Both the position numbers and the translations under genes were made by a program. Below are positions 12,847-61,437 of a DNA stretch of 64,000 nt, one piece after another; position 1 is the first letter of the stretch; every line of letters begins with the position of its first letter. The DNA is from Oxalobacteraceae bacterium (GTDB lineage: Bacteria > Pseudomonadota > Gammaproteobacteria > Burkholderiales > Burkholderiaceae_D): NCBI GenBank assembly GCA_030698225.1, contig JAUYNR010000087.1, positions 1 through 64,000 of the forward strand, written 5' to 3'. The notes under the pieces are model-generated. The model had not been told where the DNA came from and did no database searches. It worked only from the letters and a program-made list of their open reading frames with translations.

Positions 12847-12903
12847 TGGAGTATGGCTTAAAACACTGCATTTTCCGCATATGTTCATTGCGACTTAAAA
12901 AAT
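12847..12903. repeat. AT-rich dispersed repeat (TGGAGTATGGCTTAAAACACTGCATTTTCCGCATAT...)
   Basis: Shares GGAGTAT, TTTTCCGCATAT and AAAAC blocks with 865-930, 7888-7947, 15922-15984, 57280-57350, 61058-61093. Confidence 0.45.
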
Positions 12904-12944
12904 ACAACAGCGGGTATATCGATAGACCCAAGGGCCGGCCGAAG

Positions 12945-17461: not shown

Positions 17462-17532
17462 GTAGGAGCGCACCCGGGCGCGAAAGCAGTCGCCAGACTG
17501 CTGCCGTCGGTCGCGCCCGGGTGCGCTCCTAC
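17462..17532. repeat. REP/BIME type-1 copy
   Basis: GTAGGAGCGCACCCGGGCGCGAAAGCAGTCGCCAGACTGCTGCCGTCGGTCGCGCCCGGGTGCGCTCCTAC. Confidence 0.95.
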
Positions 17533-17563: not shown

Positions 17564-17980
17564 ATGAAAATGACCCCCAACGCACCTCGTCCGGAAGACA
17601 CTGCGGCGCTGGAACAGCTGCGCGACGTCTGTCGTGCAAACGACCAGTTGGAAATTGCCGTACTCATCGGCAGCCGTGCAAGCGGGTGCAGCCACGAGGG
17701 TAGTGACTGGGACATCGCCATTCAGTGGCATAGGCAGAGTGTGCCAGAGCAACAATTCGGCCTGGCAGAACAACTGCGCCATCAAATTGCGCAACAACTG
17801 AAGATCGACAGTGCACAAATCGACTTGATCGATATGCCCACCGCGCGGCTGGCGATGCGTGCCGTTATTGCCGAAGAAGGCATCCCTCTGAAGACGGACA
17901 CGCTGGCATGGCACCATTTTCTCACCCGCACCTGGGCCGAGTTGGAACAACTGGAGTGGGAGCGACAACATGCGTCTTGA
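17564..17980 (+). CDS. MntA-like nucleotidyltransferase (MNT) antitoxin
   Basis: LIGSRASGCSHEGSDWDIAIQW (GSxxSG...SDxD motif); overlaps a HEPN ORF downstream. Confidence 0.85.
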   Translation: MKMTPNAPRPEDTAALEQLRDVCRANDQLEIAVLIGSRASGCSHEGSDWDIAIQWHRQSVPEQQFGLAEQLRHQIAQQLKIDSAQIDLIDMPTARLAMRAVIAEEGIPLKTDTLAWHHFLTRTWAELEQLEWERQHAS

Positions 17981-18401
17981 TTTATACCAGCAAGAAACAG
18001 CCACGATCGCAGCCCTGCAGGGTGGCTTGCTTGATGAGGCAGCACAAAAACTGCAAGCAGGCCAAACACTCAGCGCACTGGAGCAAAACGGTGTGCTGCA
18101 TGCTTTACAAATCCTGATCGAAAACGCCATCGGAAAGGCCAAGCATCTGCTAAAAGCGTCTGATCAGACGGTGCCGGTTTCTGCCTACGATGCCTTTCTT
18201 TTGCTGGCGCAAGCCAAATTAATAGCAGCATCAGAAACGCCACAATGGAACAACGCCGTAGGCCTGCGCAACAAAATTGTGCATGATTACATGAACTTGC
18301 GGATGGATATTGTCCTTGCACTGGTGGTGCAACAGCAATACCGATTCATAGTGAATTTTTTACAAGCGCCGATACCCAGCCAACTTAGCACGAAGAAATA
18401 A
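17970..18401 (+). CDS. HepT-like HEPN ribonuclease toxin
   Basis: GLRNKIVHDYMN (RX4-6H motif RNKIVH), all-helical, translationally overlapped with MNT gene. Confidence 0.85.
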   Translation: MRLDLYQQETATIAALQGGLLDEAAQKLQAGQTLSALEQNGVLHALQILIENAIGKAKHLLKASDQTVPVSAYDAFLLLAQAKLIAASETPQWNNAVGLRNKIVHDYMNLRMDIVLALVVQQQYRFIVNFLQAPIPSQLSTKK

Positions 18402-19844: not shown

Positions 19845-19923
19845 TGCGGGTAGGGTTACACCACCAATTCGTGCATGTATAATCACCGACTCTCATGCTG
19901 CACCGCAAAATTAAATCTACCCG

Positions 19924-20043
19924 ATGACCCGCATCCTACTAACAGGCAAAATCGGCCAGGTCGGCTACGAAATGGAGTGCAGCCTGCAGTGCCTGGGCGA
20001 AATCATCGCCCCAAACCGCACCGCCAAAATACCTACGTACTCT
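19924..20043 (+). pseudogene. Truncated rmlD/rfbD 5' fragment (copy 1), interrupted by REP after about 33 codons
   Basis: MTRILLTGKIGQVGYEMECSLQCLGEIIAPNR matches the N-terminus of the intact copy at 23256; REP begins at 20044. Confidence 0.9.
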
Positions 20044-20114
20044 GTAGGAGCGCACCCGGGCGCGAACGCAGTTGCCAGACTGCTGCCGTCGGTCGCGCCC
20101 GGGTGCGCTCCTAC
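20044..20114. repeat. REP/BIME type-1 copy
   Basis: GTAGGAGCGCACCCGGGCGCGAACGCAGTTGCCAGACTGCTGCCGTCGGTCGCGCCCGGGTGCGCTCCTAC. Confidence 0.95.
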
Positions 20115-20179: not shown

Positions 20180-20615
20180 ATGAAAACAATCACTTCAACG
20201 CTGGCGGCGGGCGAGAAAACATCCCAGCCGATAGATGCGTTGCTCAAAGATGTGCTGGCGCATTTTCCGCAAATTGTCCTTGCTGTGCTGTTTGGTTCTG
20301 TGGCGCTGGGTCGCCAACGGCCGGACAAGCGATCTGGACATTGCTGTTGCTGCCGCCCAGCCACTGACGCCAGACGAAAAAATAGCCATCATCGGCGCCT
20401 TGGCCGAGCGTACCGGGCGACCGATAGATCTGATCGATCTGAAAGGTGTGTCCGAACCATTGCTCGGACAGGTGGTACGACATGGCAGAAGAATACTGGG
20501 CAGCGATACGCACTACGGCGCACTGATTAATCGGCATCTGCTTGAACAGGCAGATTTCATGCCTTATCGTTCCAGAGTGCTTGCAGAAAGGCGGAGATCA
20601 TGGATCGGGAAGTAG
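20180..20615 (+). pseudogene. Frameshifted MNT nucleotidyltransferase (antitoxin of second MNT/HEPN pair)
   Basis: Frame 1 encodes ...VLFGSVALGR; the following SDLDIAVAAAQPLTPDEK is in a second frame (ORF 20235-20615). Confidence 0.8.
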
Positions 20616-21007
20616 TAGAACAAAAACTGGAATTTTTGCGGCGGTGCTTGCAACGAATAGAAACAAAGTGTCCGCCAGATCCGGAAACTTTAATGACGGA
20701 CCTGGATCTTCAGGACATTGTCGCGCTTAATCTCAGCCGTGCGGTACAAATCTGTGTTGATATCGGCGCGCATTTGATCGCAGGAATGGATGTTCCAGCA
20801 CCGGATACCATGGGACAAACTTTCGACATATTGGCGCAAGCAGGACAGTTGAGCGATGCACTGGCAACCAGCCTCAAGAAAGCAGAGGGCTTCCGAAATA
20901 TTGCTGTTCACAATTACGAGAGTATTAACTGGATCATCGTGCATAGCAGTGTGCGATATCACCTTGCTGATTTTGCAGAGTTCGCCAAGGTGGTTGCTGC
21001 GCGATGA
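20600..21007 (+). CDS. HepT-like HEPN toxin (second pair)
   Basis: GFRNIAVHNYESI motif; same architecture as 39322-39738. Confidence 0.85.
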   Translation: MDREVVEQKLEFLRRCLQRIETKCPPDPETLMTDLDLQDIVALNLSRAVQICVDIGAHLIAGMDVPAPDTMGQTFDILAQAGQLSDALATSLKKAEGFRNIAVHNYESINWIIVHSSVRYHLADFAEFAKVVAAR

Positions 21008-22922: not shown

Positions 22923-23038
22923 TTTAATGTTAATCGCCCCAGCCAAACCCCCCACAAAACACACCCCCACCATAATTCACCAACTCCCCGCATGTATAAT
23001 CACCCCTCGCATATTGCACAGCAAAACGAAACACCCCC

Positions 23039-23157
23039 ATGATCCGCATCCTATTAACAGGCAAAACCGGGCAGGTCGGCTACGAGCTAGAGCGCAGCCT
23101 GCAAGGCCTGGGCGAAATCATTGCCCTAACTCGCCCGCCAAAACTCCTGCGCACCCT
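23039..23157 (+). pseudogene. Truncated rmlD/rfbD 5' fragment (copy 2), interrupted by REP
   Basis: MIRILLTGKTGQVGYELERSLQGLGEIIAL then divergence, REP begins 23158; upstream leader resembles copy 1 leader. Confidence 0.9.
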
Positions 23158-23229
23158 GTAGGAGCGCACCCGGGCGCGAAAGCAGTCGTCAGACTGCTGC
23201 CGTTGGTCGCGCCCGGGTGCGCTCCCCAC
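23158..23229. repeat. REP/BIME type-1 copy
   Basis: GTAGGAGCGCACCCGGGCGCGAAAGCAGTCGTCAGACTGCTGCCGTTGGTCGCGCCCGGGTGCGCTCCCCAC. Confidence 0.92.
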
Positions 23230-33335: not shown

Positions 33336-34274
33336 ATGACTAAAATTCTGGTGACGGGCGCAAGTGGTTTTGTAGGGAGTGTTCTTTGTGATACCTTGCA
33401 TGCGCGTAACATATATTTTGTTCCAGCCGTACGTATTGCCAAGAGTAATGATCAATTTTCTGTTGGTGAATTGAATGCTGCTACAAAATGGGGAAATGCT
33501 TTAGCTGGATGTAAAGCAGTCATACATTTGGCTGCGCGTGTTCATGTGATGAACGACACATCAAGTGATCCACTTGCAGCTTTCCGTGCCATGAATGTTG
33601 ACGCAACATTGAATTTGGCGAAACAGGCAGTTCAGTGCGGCGTCAAACGCTTTGTATTTATAAGCAGCGTCAAGGTAAACGGTGAAGAAACCACCAGCAA
33701 GCCATTTACCGCTTTCGACGAACCTGCACCACTTGATCCTTATGGGCAGTCAAAGCTTGAAGCGGAAATTGCGCTGATGGAGTTGGCGCGTACTACTGGT
33801 CTTGAGGTCGTCATTGTTCGTCCGCCCCTGGTGTATGGTCCAGGCGTGCGTGCAAACTTTCTTAAGTTAATGCAGTTGGTAAAAATGGGTGTGCCTCTAC
33901 CATTGGGGGCTATTCATAACCGCAGAAGCATGGTGGCACTGGTTAATCTGGTTGATTTGCTGATTACCTGCACGCATCATCCGGCCGCAGCGGGGCAGAC
34001 GTTTATGGTGTCGGATGATAATGATGTGAGCATTTCAGAATTGCTCCGTATGCTTGCCCGTGCCATGGGAAAGCGATCCTTGTTATTGCCCATACCTGCC
34101 GGAATAATTGCCGGCACTGCTGCCATTTTGGGTAAATCTGCAGTGGCGAGTCGATTATTGGGCTCGTTGCAAGTTGATATTAATCATACCAAATCAACAT
34201 TGGGCTGGAAGCCTGTTATCACTATGCAAGAATCGCTTAATAAAACCGTAGCACATTTTCTTGCACATCATTGA
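33336..34274 (+). CDS. NAD-dependent epimerase/dehydratase (UDP-hexose 4-epimerase-like)
   Basis: ILVTGASGFVGSVLCDTL, DPYGQSKLEAEIAL, RPPLVYGPGVRANFLKLM. Confidence 0.85.
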   Translation: MTKILVTGASGFVGSVLCDTLHARNIYFVPAVRIAKSNDQFSVGELNAATKWGNALAGCKAVIHLAARVHVMNDTSSDPLAAFRAMNVDATLNLAKQAVQCGVKRFVFISSVKVNGEETTSKPFTAFDEPAPLDPYGQSKLEAEIALMELARTTGLEVVIVRPPLVYGPGVRANFLKLMQLVKMGVPLPLGAIHNRRSMVALVNLVDLLITCTHHPAAAGQTFMVSDDNDVSISELLRMLARAMGKRSLLLPIPAGIIAGTAAILGKSAVASRLLGSLQVDINHTKSTLGWKPVITMQESLNKTVAHFLAHH

Positions 34275-34285
34275 TTGGCTTGGGT

Positions 34286-34846
34286 ATGAAAAGATTATTT
34301 GATTTTTTTTTGGCTTTATTTGCACTGCTGATTTTATTGATACCACTTGTTTTGGTGGCGGTTATCGTTAAATTGACATCCAGTGGCCCTATCGTCTATT
34401 GGTCTGATCGCGTAGGGCGGCATAATAAGATTTTCAGAATGCCGAAATTCAGGACGATGCGCGTCGATACGCCGGCTGTGGCTACGCATCTTTTATCTGA
34501 TCCGAAACAGTTTCTGACACCGGTCGGTTCTTTTTTGCGTAAATCGAGTCTGGATGAGTTGCCGCAGCTTTGGAGTATTGTCAAAGGTGATATGAGTTTT
34601 GTTGGCCCGCGTCCGGCATTGTTCAATCAGGATGATCTGGTGGCATTGCGTACCCAATGTGGGGTTGATAAGGTGTTGCCGGGGCTGACCGGGTGGGCGC
34701 AGATTAATGGCAGGGATGAATTGCCTATTCCGGATAAAGTTAAGCTGGATGTCGATTATGTACTTCGACAATCGTTTGGATTGGATTTGAAAATACTCTT
34801 TCTGACGTTTTTGAAGGTGGTGCGTCGGGATGGGGTGACGCATTGA
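34286..34846 (+). CDS. Undecaprenyl-phosphate sugar-1-phosphate transferase
   Basis: [73 protein letters not shown]. Confidence 0.92.
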
Positions 34847-34859
34847 GATTGTTGATTTT

Positions 34860-34928
34860 GTAGGAGCGCACCCGGGCGCGATAGGTCGTGGCAGAGTTGA
34901 GGTTGGTCGCGCCCGGGTGCGCTCCCAC
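34860..34928. repeat. REP/BIME type-1 copy (subvariant with GGTCGTGGCAGAGTTGA spacer)
   Basis: GTAGGAGCGCACCCGGGCGCGATAGGTCGTGGCAGAGTTGAGGTTGGTCGCGCCCGGGTGCGCTCCCAC. Confidence 0.93.
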
Positions 34929-34957
34929 AGTGCACGTTTTATTTGGATTGATTATTG

Positions 34958-36940
34958 ATGTTGAAACCGCTATTGGATGTTTCCCGTTTTCAAAAACAGA
35001 TCATCGCTGCTACGGTGGATTTGTTTTGCTTGCCGCTGGCCTTTTGCGTGGCAGTCTGGTTGCGTTATGACGGTTTCAATATTGTGTCTCTGCAGCCGTA
35101 CACCTGGATGATTCTTGCTGCGCCTCTGATATCTATTCCGATTTTCATCAGGCTGGGTTTGTATCGCGCGGTTATTCGTTTTATCGATCACAAGATTGTC
35201 TATGTGGCGGTGATCGGGGTGACGCTTTCGGTGGTGGTGTTGGTTTCTTTGGCGGCATTTTCTACCCACATGATTGGGGTGTCGCGCGGCGTATTCGGCA
35301 TTTACTGGGTGAGTGCGATCCTGTATGTCGCTGCCAGCCGGTTTGTGGCGCGTAGTTATCTTGTGCATGCCAGCGGTATTAGCGGCGGCACCTGTGTGGC
35401 GATTTATGGTGCGGGTGGCGCGGGCAATCAACTGGCAAGTGCTTTGAAGCATACAAGCGATTTCCGGCCGGTGGCTTTTATCGATGACAAGAAAGAGCTG
35501 CAGGGTGCAACGATAGCCGGCATCAAAGTGTACGCGTTCAATGCTTTGCAGCAGTTGATTATCAAGCGGGACATCAAGGAGGTTTTGCTGGCGATGCCGT
35601 CGCTGAACAAGGCGCAGCAGAAGCATATTCTCGAACGGCTGGCGCCGCTGAAGTTGAAAATCAAGGTGACGCCGCCGCTTACGGCACTGGTCAACGGCAA
35701 AGGAGTGGTGCATCTGGAGGATGTGCGCGAGATCGAGATCGAGGATTTGCTCGGGCGCGACCAGGTCGCGCCTGATCCGCGCCTGATCGCTGCGTGCATC
35801 ACCGGCAAGTCGGTGATGGTGAGCGGAGCCGGGGGCTCGATCGGATCGGAGTTGTGCCGCCAGATATTACGCCAGCAGCCGGCCAGGCTGATTCTGCTGG
35901 AGATGTCGGAGTTTGCGCTGTATACGATCGAGCAAGAGTTGCGTTTGCTGCAAAAGAAGTTGGGCAGCACGGCGGAGCTGATGCCTTTTCTCGGCTCGGT
36001 ACTGGAGGGCGAGAAGTGTCAGCGCATCATGCGCACTTTTGCGGTGGAGACGGTTTACCATGCAGCCGCTTACAAGCATGTGCCGCTGGTCGAACATAAT
36101 CCGATCGAGGGTATTCGCAATAACGTCTTTGGCACGCTCAGCATTGCGCAGGCGGCGATGAGCGTCGGGGTGAATAACTTTGTGCTGATTTCCACCGATA
36201 AGGCGGTGCGTCCGACCAATGTGATGGGCGCCACCAAGCGCCTGTCGGAGCTGGTTTTGCAGGCATTCGCCCGGCAGCAATGTGCGAAGCTGCTCCATGG
36301 GCAAGCGCATACGCGTTTCTGCATGGTGCGGTTTGGCAATGTGCTGGGCTCGTCGGGTTCGGTGGTGCCGCTGTTTCGAAAGCAGATTCTGGCGGGTGGC
36401 CCGATCACGCTGACGCATCCGGAAATCACGCGTTATTTCATGACGATCCCGGAAGCGGCGCAACTAGTGTTGCAGGCCGGTTCGATGGGCGAGGGCGGTG
36501 ATGTCTTCGTGCTGGATATGGGGCAGCCGGTCAAGATCATGGATCTGGCCACGCAGATGGTGCGCTTGAGCGGGCTGGAGGTCAAAAGCGAAGCGACCCC
36601 TGAAGGCACGATCGAGCTGCATCACGTCGGCCTGCGCCCGGGCGAGAAATTGTATGAAGAATTGCTGATCGGCGATAACGTCGAAGGCACCGATCACCCG
36701 TTGATCATGTGTGCGCAAGAAGCAGAAATCCCTTGGCCGGAGTTGCAGGGGCTGTTGCAGGAGTTGGCGAATGCTTGTGAGCGCTTTGATTTTGCAGAGA
36801 TCAGGGTGTTGTTGCACCGCGCAGTGGGTGAATATGCACCGCAGTGCGGGATTGAGGATTTCATCTGGCGCGAACAGAGTAAGTCATCGACAGTGCCTGT
36901 GCCTGTGATGTTGCATAAAAATCGGATAGGGGCTTTGTAG
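34958..36940 (+). CDS. WbpM/CapD-like nucleotide-sugar 4,6-dehydratase (membrane-bound)
   Basis: N-terminal TM segments, VMVSGAGGSIGSELCRQIL, YHAAAYKHVPLVEHNPIEGIRNNVFGT. Confidence 0.93.
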   Translation: MLKPLLDVSRFQKQIIAATVDLFCLPLAFCVAVWLRYDGFNIVSLQPYTWMILAAPLISIPIFIRLGLYRAVIRFIDHKIVYVAVIGVTLSVVVLVSLAAFSTHMIGVSRGVFGIYWVSAILYVAASRFVARSYLVHASGISGGTCVAIYGAGGAGNQLASALKHTSDFRPVAFIDDKKELQGATIAGIKVYAFNALQQLIIKRDIKEVLLAMPSLNKAQQKHILERLAPLKLKIKVTPPLTALVNGKGVVHLEDVREIEIEDLLGRDQVAPDPRLIAACITGKSVMVSGAGGSIGSELCRQILRQQPARLILLEMSEFALYTIEQELRLLQKKLGSTAELMPFLGSVLEGEKCQRIMRTFAVETVYHAAAYKHVPLVEHNPIEGIRNNVFGTLSIAQAAMSVGVNNFVLISTDKAVRPTNVMGATKRLSELVLQAFARQQCAKLLHGQAHTRFCMVRFGNVLGSSGSVVPLFRKQILAGGPITLTHPEITRYFMTIPEAAQLVLQAGSMGEGGDVFVLDMGQPVKIMDLATQMVRLSGLEVKSEATPEGTIELHHVGLRPGEKLYEELLIGDNVEGTDHPLIMCAQEAEIPWPELQGLLQELANACERFDFAEIRVLLHRAVGEYAPQCGIEDFIWREQSKSSTVPVPVMLHKNRIGAL

Positions 36941-37108
36941 GCGCATCGCAATGGCGGCATGAATACGGTTTTTTTGTAGGGGATACGGTGTGGTTTTTGG
37001 TGCTAGATATTCACTCCCCTTCGCTGGGGAGGTAGCGTTCATAGTGGGCTGAACTTGTAGTTTTCGATCCGACCAGTATTAGTTTTAATTATTTTAGAGT
37101 GAAATATT

Positions 37109-38323
37109 ATGCAGAAAGATTCATTTATTACCCAGAATAGAGATCCACAAGTACTTGAAATTTCCCTGCTGGATGTGCTGGCAACTATTTGGCGTTCGCG
37201 CTGGATGGTGCTGATAGTTACCAGCCTGGTGGCCATTTGTGGTGTGGTGGGCGCTTTGTATGTTGGGAAATACAGGAGCGAAGGTTTTTTTCAGTTTGGC
37301 GGCGCCATTCCTACTAAAGAATATAACGCAGGTGGATCAGGAATTACTTTGTCGGACTACAAACGGTTTGCTGCATCGTATACAACCAGTGAACGGTTCG
37401 CAGAGTATGTGCAGGACAAAAAACTGGATTCAGCTGCCGGTATTGACGATTTGCGCAAAGCCTTTGTTTCGCGTGGTGGAATTGCGAAATCGATTGAACC
37501 GGTTTATCCGTTTACTAAACTGGATGCCAAGAATTTGATGGATCAGCCGAAGGACAGTAGTAATAATGTCATTGGTTTGCAGATTAATGTCGAAAGTGCC
37601 AATTCGCAAACAGCGCAACAAATGGTTGGTTTTCTCGGCCATTACGTAATGGATAGCATTGTTTATTTAATCTATTCGGATACGTTGCGATTCAAGCAAA
37701 GCGAAATCTCGGCGAAGCTCATAAGGCTCGATAATTCCATCATTTACAACAAAGAGAAACTGGAAGAGTATCGTCGCAAAGGCGCAGACTTGAAGCAAAT
37801 TCTGACTCGGTATCCGAGCTCGTCAAATCAGCAGTCACAACAGGTTGTGTCGGTCACCGAAGACAGCGCGCGCTATCTCTCTCCAGTGACGCAATTGGTA
37901 ACGACGGAGGTCCAAACATCGGAAGCCAATGAGCTAATTGTGAAAACGAAGCGCGAGCAGCAGCAAGCCATATTGTTGCAGGAGTATTACAAAAACGCAA
38001 AAGCCCTACTGGAAAGTACGAAGTCAGGCGAAACCGTATTGCGTGGTCTTGAGCCGGTCAAGGATCGCGTCTTCAAGGATAAGAATCTGGATGATGAAGT
38101 GGTAAAGGAAGTTTACAACGTGATCACGATGGACAACCAAAACGCCATTAACGTGTATCTCGAAAAAAGCCGTTTTATTGCCGGTCCGACCTTGCCCTCC
38201 AGATCATCCTCGCGTCCGGCACTGGTATTGGCCGGTAGTCTGATATTTGGATTATTTTTGTCGATGATATTGGTGTTCGGTCGCAATTGGTGGCGCGAGA
38301 ATAAAACTAAAATATGCGGTTGA
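37109..38323 (+). CDS. Wzz-family chain-length determinant protein
   Basis: N-terminal ISLLDVLATIWRSRWMVLIVTSLVAI and C-terminal PALVLAGSLIFGLFLSMILVF TM segments; locus context. Confidence 0.78.
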   Translation: MQKDSFITQNRDPQVLEISLLDVLATIWRSRWMVLIVTSLVAICGVVGALYVGKYRSEGFFQFGGAIPTKEYNAGGSGITLSDYKRFAASYTTSERFAEYVQDKKLDSAAGIDDLRKAFVSRGGIAKSIEPVYPFTKLDAKNLMDQPKDSSNNVIGLQINVESANSQTAQQMVGFLGHYVMDSIVYLIYSDTLRFKQSEISAKLIRLDNSIIYNKEKLEEYRRKGADLKQILTRYPSSSNQQSQQVVSVTEDSARYLSPVTQLVTTEVQTSEANELIVKTKREQQQAILLQEYYKNAKALLESTKSGETVLRGLEPVKDRVFKDKNLDDEVVKEVYNVITMDNQNAINVYLEKSRFIAGPTLPSRSSSRPALVLAGSLIFGLFLSMILVFGRNWWRENKTKICG

Positions 38324-38371
38324 GAATCGCCGGATTAGTTTTGTGCACCTGAAGGCTCTCCTGCCCGGGTG

Positions 38372-38422
38372 TTTCTGACGGTGATGCGTCGGGATGGGGT
38401 GATGCTTGAGATTGTTGATTTA
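38372..38422. pseudogene. Remnant duplicate of the 3' end of the sugar transferase gene (source 34799-34859)
   Basis: TTTCTGACGGTGATGCGTCGGGATGGGGTGATGCTTGAGATTGTTGATTTA versus TTTCTGACG(TTTTTGAAG)GTGGTGCGTCGGGATGGGGTGACGCATTGAGATTGTTGATTTT. Confidence 0.85.
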
Positions 38423-38491
38423 GTAGGAGCGCACCCGGGCGCGACAGGTCGTGGCAGAGTTGATGTTGATCGTGCCCGGGTACGCTCCTAC
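38423..38491. repeat. REP/BIME type-1 copy (same subvariant as 34860)
   Basis: GTAGGAGCGCACCCGGGCGCGACAGGTCGTGGCAGAGTTGATGTTGATCGTGCCCGGGTACGCTCCTAC. Confidence 0.93.
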
Positions 38492-38583
38492 GGGGTTCTT
38501 TGTGATTTTTATACAGCGCTCCTTTTGCATGCTGAGGGCATGCTTCAGGCGCGATTGGTTGCTTAATCGTTTAGGGAGTTTTC

Positions 38584-38904
38584 ATGGATTTATCAAAATT
38601 GTCATTGACAGATTTGCGTGCATTACAGGACCAGCTCAAGCAGGAAATCAAGAAGCGTGAACAGCAGGACCTGGTCAAGGCGCGCGAGCAGATCATGGCG
38701 ATTGCGCAAAGCGTGGGGATGCCGCTCAAGGAGTTGATGGGCAGTCAGGCGCGCGCGGCCAAGGCCGGTGCGGTGGTGAAGGTGGCAGTGCGGTATCGGC
38801 ATCCGGCCGATGCATCGCTGCAATGGACCGGGCGCGGGCGCCAGCCGAAATGGATCCAGGATTGGCTTGCATCGAGCCAGTCGCTGGATGCACTGAAGGT
38901 ATAG
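38584..38904 (+). CDS. H-NS-family histone-like protein
   Basis: N-terminal coiled coil LTDLRALQDQLKQEIKKREQQDLVKAREQI; C-terminal VAVRYRHPADASLQWTGRGRQPKWIQDWL. Confidence 0.92.
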   Translation: MDLSKLSLTDLRALQDQLKQEIKKREQQDLVKAREQIMAIAQSVGMPLKELMGSQARAAKAGAVVKVAVRYRHPADASLQWTGRGRQPKWIQDWLASSQSLDALKV

Positions 38905-38912
38905 CAACGAAT

Positions 38913-39332
38913 ATGTCTTCTGCACATCGAGATAGGGCCGAACTTGCACTGCGTATGCTGCGGGGGGCATTGCCCGGATTGCGCGCAGTGTATCGCTTCG
39001 GCTCGTCGGGGTCGGTGTATGAGACGCCGCAGAGCGATCTCGATCTGGCTGTATGGTGTCTGCCTGCGGTGCCGGACGACGCTTTATGGTGGTTGGCGCA
39101 GGATCTCGCCGCCCAGTGCGGGCGGGATGTCGATTTGGTGAATCTGAATACGGCCAGCACGGTGATGCGTCATCAGATCGTCACAACCGGGGAGCGGCTT
39201 TTTGCGGTTCCGCCGTTAATTGATATCGAATTGTTCGAAACGCATGTTTTGTCTGAGTATGCGTCATTGAATGAACGCCGGGCTCTTATATTGCAGGATG
39301 TACTGGAGTCGGGGGTGGTGTATGGCAGATGA
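38913..39332 (+). CDS. MNT-domain nucleotidyltransferase (antitoxin of third pair)
   Basis: YRFGSSGSVYETPQSDLDLAVW; 8 bp after the H-NS-like stop; overlaps HEPN ORF. Confidence 0.85.
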   Translation: MSSAHRDRAELALRMLRGALPGLRAVYRFGSSGSVYETPQSDLDLAVWCLPAVPDDALWWLAQDLAAQCGRDVDLVNLNTASTVMRHQIVTTGERLFAVPPLIDIELFETHVLSEYASLNERRALILQDVLESGVVYGR

Positions 39333-39738
39333 CGTTATTTTGAACAAGGTTGCTATCATTCAGCGTTGCCTGGGGCGGATCCAGGATGAATATTGCAATC
39401 ATGAAGACGAACTGGAAACCAATTTTACCCGTCAGGATTCGATTGTGTTGAATGTGCAGCGAGCCTGTGAGGCATCGATTGATTTGGCGATGCATCTGGT
39501 GCGGATATACAAGCTTGGCATTCCGCAAGACAGCCGTGCGGCATTTGCGATGCTGGCGGAGCAAGGCCTGATTCCGGTTGAGTTGTCCAGCCGCTTGCAG
39601 GCGATGACCGGTTTCCGTAATGTTGCTGTGCATGATTACCAGAAACTAAGTCTGGCAGTATTGCGCGGCATTCTGAATGATCGTCTGAGTGACTTCAGTT
39701 CCTTTTCAACTATTGCGCTAGGGTTGACAAAGGCATGA
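39322..39738 (+). CDS. HepT-like HEPN toxin (third pair)
   Basis: GFRNVAVHDYQKL (RNVAVH); resembles 20600-21007. Confidence 0.87.
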   Translation: MADDVILNKVAIIQRCLGRIQDEYCNHEDELETNFTRQDSIVLNVQRACEASIDLAMHLVRIYKLGIPQDSRAAFAMLAEQGLIPVELSSRLQAMTGFRNVAVHDYQKLSLAVLRGILNDRLSDFSSFSTIALGLTKA

Positions 39739-41238: not shown

Positions 41239-41341
41239 GGTTGCGGCAGTTTTATATATACTGGCATTGGTATTTTCAAAGTGGCAATCAGTATCTGCGC
41301 AAACTGTATTGTTTTTTAATATACCCTGCCAATATTGAAGC

Positions 41342-41403
41342 TGTCGCGCCCGGGTGCGCTGCTACAAAGACTTCCACACTTGTAGGAGCGCACCCGGGCG
41401 CGA
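41342..41403. repeat. Two REP half-sites in opposite orientation upstream of the RAYT gene
   Basis: TCGCGCCCGGGTGCGCTGCTACA then TGTAGGAGCGCACCCGGGCGCGAC. Confidence 0.9.
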
Positions 41404-41432
41404 CCGGACTGTGATCAACTGCGGTGTTCGCC

Positions 41433-41930
41433 ATGACACAAACATCCGATCAGCCGGAAATAACTACAAAGTATCCAGGCGAAGGCCATGTGGCATTACG
41501 GCATGGTCGGGTGTCAATGACAGGCCAGATATACCATGTGTCAACGGCAACAGTTGGTCGATCCAGATTATTTGATGACTTTACGGCCGGCTGCGCCGCC
41601 GCTCGGTGTTTCGAGAGCCGTGCCGCGTTGGGTGATGCGCAAATGCTGGCGTGGGTGCTGATGCCGGATCACGTGCATTGGCTGATTGGTTTGGGCGAAC
41701 GATATACTCTTGATATTCTTGTCAGTCGTCTTAAAGCGACAAGTGCCCGCAGTGTTAATCAAATATCACATCGAGCCGGTGCGGTGTGGTCGCGGGCATA
41801 CCACGACCACGCGCTGCGCGGCGATGAGGATGTGGCGTCTGTTGCGCGTTATATCGTTGCCAATCCCTTGCGCGCCGGGTTGGTGAAATCGGTGGCACAT
41901 TATCCGTTCTGGAACGCGGTGTTTTTGTAG
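41433..41930 (+). mobile_element. REP-associated tyrosine transposase (RAYT, IS200/IS605-like Y1 HUH)
   Basis: LAWVLMPDHVHWLIGL (HUH), VARYIVANPLRAGL (catalytic Tyr region), flanked on both sides by the window's REP. Confidence 0.92.
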
Positions 41931-57251: not shown

Positions 57252-57354
57252 GTCGGGCCTTCACTGTTGGTAATATTGATGGAGTATGCTTAAAAATAGG
57301 ATAATTACCGCAGATAAATAAAGCGGTATTGAAAATACATGCCTTTGTATGCTC

Positions 57355-61020: not shown

Positions 61021-61437
61021 ATATACGTATGTATGTATATTTAAAGTGGCAATGAAACAATGCGCAAATATCGTTGTTTTTGCATATACTCCAGATAATA
61101 TCCAAGTCTGCGGGAAAACTCCCTGTCCCGCTGGCGGGAGAGAGGTGGGGAGAGGGTGCACGCAATGGCCAGCGTGGCCCAAACAGCGCGCAACCTTGAC
61201 TCCTGCACCCGGCTTCATTGCCACGGTGGTTTCAGGCCGTGCCGTTACCAGGATCGCCTGCACCGGGAGTTTCCGTTATTCAGGGTTTGTTGCCGGATTC
61301 GCGTGGGCATTCGATGCCCCAATCAGGACTCCAGACTTGCCGACAAGCAAAACTCCGGCGTGATTAGCTTGATTGCGCCAGGGAAAGCCGTGATACTGGA
61401 TGGAAATAAATCAAATTTCTATCCTTTGGGAAACGCG

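Follow-up and report, generated by a model that had tools for sequence, protein, structure and literature searches.

The 3' end of a sugar transferase (ST) gene, together with the REP behind it, occurs twice in the window, that is, the whole stretch of 64,000 nucleotides analysed here: once at the gene itself and again after wzz. The locus therefore raises the question of how a REP was repeated with a part of its neighbouring gene. The window corresponds to contig C113 in a genome of 4.18 Mb and 123 contigs. Two relatives of the same genus were informative, Glaciimonas sp. KJC.1 (G002, JABBOV010000003.1) and G003, while a genome of another genus (G024, locus on contig C374) served as the outgroup. 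The REP loci of the genome were gathered by search and region retrieval, giving 44 REP sites that were considered. The significance of the alignments of a short segment, here called Z, was assessed by the score against 1000 dinucleotide shuffles. The reading reached is a local duplication of the REP element with pieces of both its flanks, to which a probability of roughly 55% is given. The features are collected in Table 1.

The recurrence of the ST 3' end, its short UTR and its REP after wzz, claimed in the preliminary description, was confirmed by genome search and pairwise alignment. When positions 34800-34928 were compared with the whole genome, the ST part was covered at two places only, namely 34800-34928 itself at 100% and 38371-38491 at 90% (E 4.6e-41); the remaining significant matches were REP sequence only. 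The non-REP flank alone was identical at 47/52 positions (E 2e-14 for a 175-nt target). Each REP here turned out to be a REPIN, a REP with an inverted REP, of 69 bp. GTAG...CTAC doublets of 67-71 bp were found; the retrieved regions of this genome contained 44 REP sites, and those of G002 and G003 contained more. The spacer AGGTCGTGGCAGAGTTGA, with up to 3 mismatches allowed, has two sites in the window where 0.03 would be expected, one in the ST REPIN and one in the post-wzz REPIN, so the spacer subvariant is indeed exclusive to the two copies in the window. The alignment starting at GTTTcTGAcGGTGaTGCG contained 5 differences over 52 nt and fitted without a 9-nt gap, which sets the ST-derived part at about 52 nt. 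The 9-nt deletion described earlier belongs to one of two possible alignments and is not obligatory.

Table 1. Features of the window, with position, strand and supporting evidence.
Feature	Position	Strand	Evidence
AT-rich motif copies	12848-12905; 61035-61092; 41270-41326; 869-924	+; -; -; -	
AT-rich motif, weaker copy	57281-57338	+	
REPIN after rmlC, ancestral left flank of ~25 nt	17462..17532	.	alignment; G002 comparison
rmlD 5' fragment, rmlC-side flank and REPIN (first permuted unit)	19907..20114	+	alignment; G002 comparison
Second rmlD 5' fragment, rmlC-side flank and REPIN	23022..23228	+	directly upstream of intact rmlD
Sugar transferase (ST, Bac_transf), source gene of the fragment	34271..34846	+	PF02397, E 2.4e-58; syntenic in G002/G003 at ~86%
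Source segment: last ~39 nt of ST, short UTR, REPIN	34808..34928	+	genome search and pairwise alignment
Ancestral REPIN (GTAGGAGCGCACCCGGGCGCGA ... TCGCGCCCGGGTGCGCTCCCAC)	34860..34928	.	REP at same place in G002; decayed in G003
capD-like polysaccharide biosynthesis protein, between both copies	34955..36940	+	PF02719, E 5.3e-122; 85% to G002/G003
wzz-like chain length determinant	37109..38323	+	weak Wzz match; decayed remnant in G002/G003, intact in G024
Segment Z, ending in truncated REP right half (GCCCGGGTG)	38333..38370	+	matches DNA immediately right of ST REPIN in G002/G003
Duplicated ST 3' end, non-coding scrap	38371..38422	+	genome search and alignment
Derived REPIN copy, same spacer subvariant	38423..38491	.	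alignment and spacer search
H-NS-like gene	38584..38904	+	PF00816; directly after wzz in G002/G003
MntA/HepT type VII toxin-antitoxin pair	38823..39738	+	NF047752 and NF047751 over cut-off; absent between H-NS and pgm in G002/G003
RAYT (REP-associated tyrosine transposase), intact	41424..41930	+	NF047646, 129.6 bits (cut-off 80); PDB 4er8 TnpA-REP, E 3.3e-7

The direction of copying was read from synteny. Both G002 and G003 have the order epimerase-ST-REP-capD-wzz remnant-HNS-pgm, and their wzz-HNS gap of about 100 nt holds no ST end and no REPIN. As the extra fragment is missing there, the ST copy is the source and the post-wzz copy is derived; on gene order, the REPIN behind ST predates the other. 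The spacer between wzz and HNS in the two relatives gave no significant match to the ST ends (p 0.07-0.38), and positions 38492-38583 gave none to the relatives or to the DNA downstream of ST (p about 0.3-0.4). The copy is about 90% identical to the ST end of the window, compared with an ST divergence of about 14% between the window and the relatives, so the duplication most likely postdates the split from G002 and G003. The outgroup has the order capD-HNS-wzz-pgm, the order of wzz and H-NS thus differing between genera.

The derived copy carries more than the left flank. Positions 38333-38364 (GGATTAGTTTTGTGCACCTGAAGGCTCTCCTGC) align with GGAGTTAATGTTTGTTGCTTCTGAAGGCTCTTATGC, which in G002 adjoins the ST REPIN directly on its right, with none of 1000 shuffles reaching the score (p<0.001); the corresponding value for G003 was p 0.006. 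The match is short (33 nt, with a core of 16 nt), and the core 16-mer CTGAAGGCTCTYMTGC, allowing at most 1 mismatch, occurs once in this genome, left of the ST scrap, and once in G002, right of the ST REPIN. The new copy therefore reads Z match, truncated REP right half (GCCCGGGTG), ST scrap and REPIN. Z stands left of the ST scrap in the window, but in the relatives it follows the REPIN on the right; the inserted order Z / ST3' / REPIN is thus permuted relative to the ancestral ST3'-REPIN-Z. Such a right-flank, left-flank, REPIN succession has, judged from the sequence, the form of a tandem-duplication or circle junction. Beyond Z, G002 and G003 possess a second, decayed REP right half, while the ST locus of the window has a single REP right half and lacks Z. 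The earlier proposal that a REP was copied with roughly 50 nt of its left flank thus holds for the duplication with flank; its restriction of the unit to REP and left flank does not, as the ancestral right neighbour was carried too.

Other REP copies with flanks from neighbouring genes were sought among the 44 REP sites, a check the preliminary description had recommended, and 3 loci (ST, rml and contig C95) showed duplications of gene-derived flanks. All these copies lie 0.2-3.6 kb from their source; the sole distant flank match, on contig C109, belongs to a copy of the whole rml locus. This second rmlB-A-C-D locus (C109:12845-17595) is 83-87% identical and has the compact rmlC-REPIN-rmlD arrangement. 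In it and in G002 the order is rmlC-~25 nt-REPIN-promoter-rmlD. The window reads rmlC-flank-REPIN, MntA/HepT, REPIN, ATPase and a unit of promoter-rmlD 5' end followed by rmlC-side flank and REPIN, then MntA/HepT, a half REP, the same kind of unit again and intact rmlD. The rml units share the right-flank, left-flank, REPIN topology of the ST case, in place. Given the rmlC-REPIN-rmlD order in G002 and on C109, the rmlD case, previously taken as a REP with an rmlD left flank, is better described as a tandem-type duplication, in place, of the DNA between rmlC and rmlD, the REPIN and the rmlD 5' end. At C95:3157/3358, a 201-nt tandem REPIN duplication with flanks has the simple tandem order. A REP-free duplication was observed in the same cluster of G003 (G003:C29:81008-81241), where 234 bp of epimerase 3' end and ST 5' end are repeated at 85%, followed by a galE-like gene; partial duplications in this cluster hence need no REP.

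Most other shared REPIN flanks belong to a dispersed composite element with a type A flank on one side and a type B flank on the other, of about 50 nt each and both with GGCTGAA-like sequence at their ends (such as GTAAYTRTTCAGCC / GGCTGAAYARTTAC). Profiles built from the loci of this genome recovered A and B on opposite REPIN sides in G002 and G003. REPINs flanked by A/B were counted at 9 loci in this genome, 5 in G002 and 2 in G003. The dispersed unit thus seems to be an A-REPIN-B element of about 170 bp, often beside an AT-rich motif. This intergenic motif of about 60 nt (GGAGTATGnnnAAAAACATGGCATTTnCCGCATATATTCATTGCGACTTTAAAAATAC, often followed by AGTATATTT) was found mostly between genes in the copies examined, in any orientation, and 20 further copies were collected beyond those of the window. 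Its model gave at least about 150 matches in each of the 4 genomes of the genus and none in the 57 genomes outside it. In G001 the motif is present and no REPs were detected. No Rfam match was obtained for the sequences tested, the motif included. It may represent a new repeat or regulatory site specific to the genus.

An intact RAYT lies nearby, with REP halves around it at 41344, 41382, 41927 and 42044, and 2 further RAYT paralogues (46-47%) are present in the genome; a role of this RAYT in the duplication is possible. Both REP copies had been said to lead into an MNT/HEPN module, which proved incorrect: the ST REPIN leads into capD, and the post-wzz copy is followed by the H-NS gene before MntA/HepT. 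Because the H-NS-pgm gap of G002 and G003 measures only about 12 nt, this pair was also gained in the window. The window holds 3/4 of the HepT genes of the genome, each within an MntA/HepT pair (17564-18401, 20180-21007 and 38823-39738); the MntA of the second pair has a frameshifted look. The gaps that hold the pairs are lacking in G002, the third also in G003. One module lies 66 nt downstream of a REPIN, one between REPINs and one behind H-NS. A link of REPIN copying with MntA/HepT was considered and rejected, as the mutual identity of only 19-30% among the three modules indicates that they did not move with the REPIN as a unit; the pairs are probably independent gains.

The best account of these data is a local duplication of the REPIN with pieces of both flanks, the likeliest route being template switching, or tandem duplication with rearrangement, at palindromes. 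The ancestral order would have been ST-REPIN-Z-(decayed second REP half)-capD-wzz-HNS-pgm. In the lineage of the window, the space between wzz and HNS would have received a copied piece ordered Z / ST3' / REPIN, and the ST locus would afterwards have lost Z, probably when the two REP right halves recombined. The agent would be template switching during host replication or repair, or else a tandem duplication that was later rearranged, in either case set off at the REPIN palindromes; an origin there would explain why 3/4 junctions lie at REP edges. Simple tandem duplication is insufficient and a second step is needed, as the unit stands 3.5 kb from its source behind two genes. A local event is favoured because gene-derived flank copies stay near their source, and the host route because of this locality, the REP-free example and the permuted order. 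The data show the duplication itself, its direction, its absence from two relatives, the permuted order and the missing Z at the ST locus of the window; template switching as the agent and the order of the later events are what we infer. The short Z match, the divergence of the wzz-HNS spacer beyond a base-by-base reading of the empty site and the number of informative relatives, two, count against local duplication.

Movement by the transposase itself is the foremost rival and is held to be unlikely. The Y1 transposase 2.9 kb downstream would have moved a single-stranded DNA segment bounded by REPIN ends behind wzz, the Z-ST3'-REPIN piece being excised or copied from a tandem array, perhaps as a circle. 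This explanation stays viable through the junctions at REP edges and the closeness of the RAYT: the gene is intact and in the same region, TnpA-REP is able in vitro to cut next to REPs and to transfer strands (PMC8266576), the two outer borders of the inserted unit are REPIN edges, and the dispersed REPINs of the genus have flanks of about 50 nt on both sides, near the 52 nt found here. Those dispersed A and B flanks, however, are element-specific sequence and not neighbouring genes, the gene-derived copies are always local and none is dispersed, and the left border is without a GTAG-like target (the right border is the REPIN end, and the empty site has diverged). A broader version, in which REPIN-bounded segments of right flank, left flank and REPIN are actively excised, possibly as RAYT-made circles, and reinserted nearby with gene ends, is doubtful; if true, RAYT/REPIN systems would reshuffle pieces of genes in O-antigen clusters and open up intergenic sites there.

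The fragment might instead have arrived by homologous recombination with a relative that already held it, importing the block wzz-Z-ST3'-REPIN-HNS-MntA/HepT. The identity of wzz (50-55%) and H-NS (75%) to G002/G003 is lower than that of capD and pgm (85-86%), the wzz/H-NS order is variable in the family, and the same gap additionally gained MntA/HepT. The low wzz identity is explained, however, by wzz being a decayed pseudogene in G002 and G003, and the ST fragment is closer to the ST of the window than to that of either relative; import would moreover merely shift the origin of the permuted unit to the donor, and it is considered rather unlikely. An insertion of wzz, or of capD-wzz, between the halves of an older contiguous tandem duplication had been named at the outset as the scenario that would remove the need for REP-linked copying. 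Formally, an insertion of this kind would produce the order REPIN / capD-wzz / Z-ST3'-REPIN. The scenario is contradicted by synteny, as both relatives have capD and the wzz remnant here in the same order without a second ST end, and the duplication is about 10% diverged, less than the distance to the relatives, which makes capD-wzz older than the duplication. This candidate was therefore rejected, its probability being very low.

The locus provides a polarised example, with source, derived copy and relatives lacking the copy, of a REPIN duplicating with a part of a neighbouring gene. It accounts for a gene scrap within an O-antigen-type cluster; without this account, the scrap might be mistaken for a degraded gene. 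The permuted junction offers a testable signature for template-switch duplication versus RAYT-mediated movement. The kind of event is ordinary and well supported and the structure is tidy and polarised, while its mechanism is what we infer.

A literature search for tandem duplications with REP endpoints gave no match. In the GTAG-type REP/RAYT system (REPtron; PMC2817692, PMC8266576), as here, GTAG-headed palindromes stand in inverted pairs with a neighbouring TnpA-REP-family gene, but the mobile unit described there is the REP/BIME or REPIN itself, and a part of a neighbouring gene falls outside its definition. The REP-free duplication of G003 resembles the present one in that a small piece of the same gene pair lies close to the intact copy, and differs in having no REP. 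In P. fluorescens SBW25, tandem clusters that take in flanking DNA are described as the most frequent higher-order arrangement of REPINs (Bertels and Rainey 2011, PMC3116915, Fig. S7). The window shares with them direct REPIN copies with 5'/3' flank stretches, a local setting, unrepeated DNA between the copies and a RAYT in the genome. The same left flank precedes the REPINs at 34860 and 38423 (47/52), and Z is present at the second copy, out of order. Unlike those clusters, which have a simple tandem order with a short unrepeated gap, capD and wzz (3.5 kb) stand between the units here, the second unit is permuted and the flank is a gene end. The event seems to be a further instance of a known process, the local duplication of REPINs with their flanks, as in the REPIN clusters of Pseudomonas, and not a new kind of mobile element.
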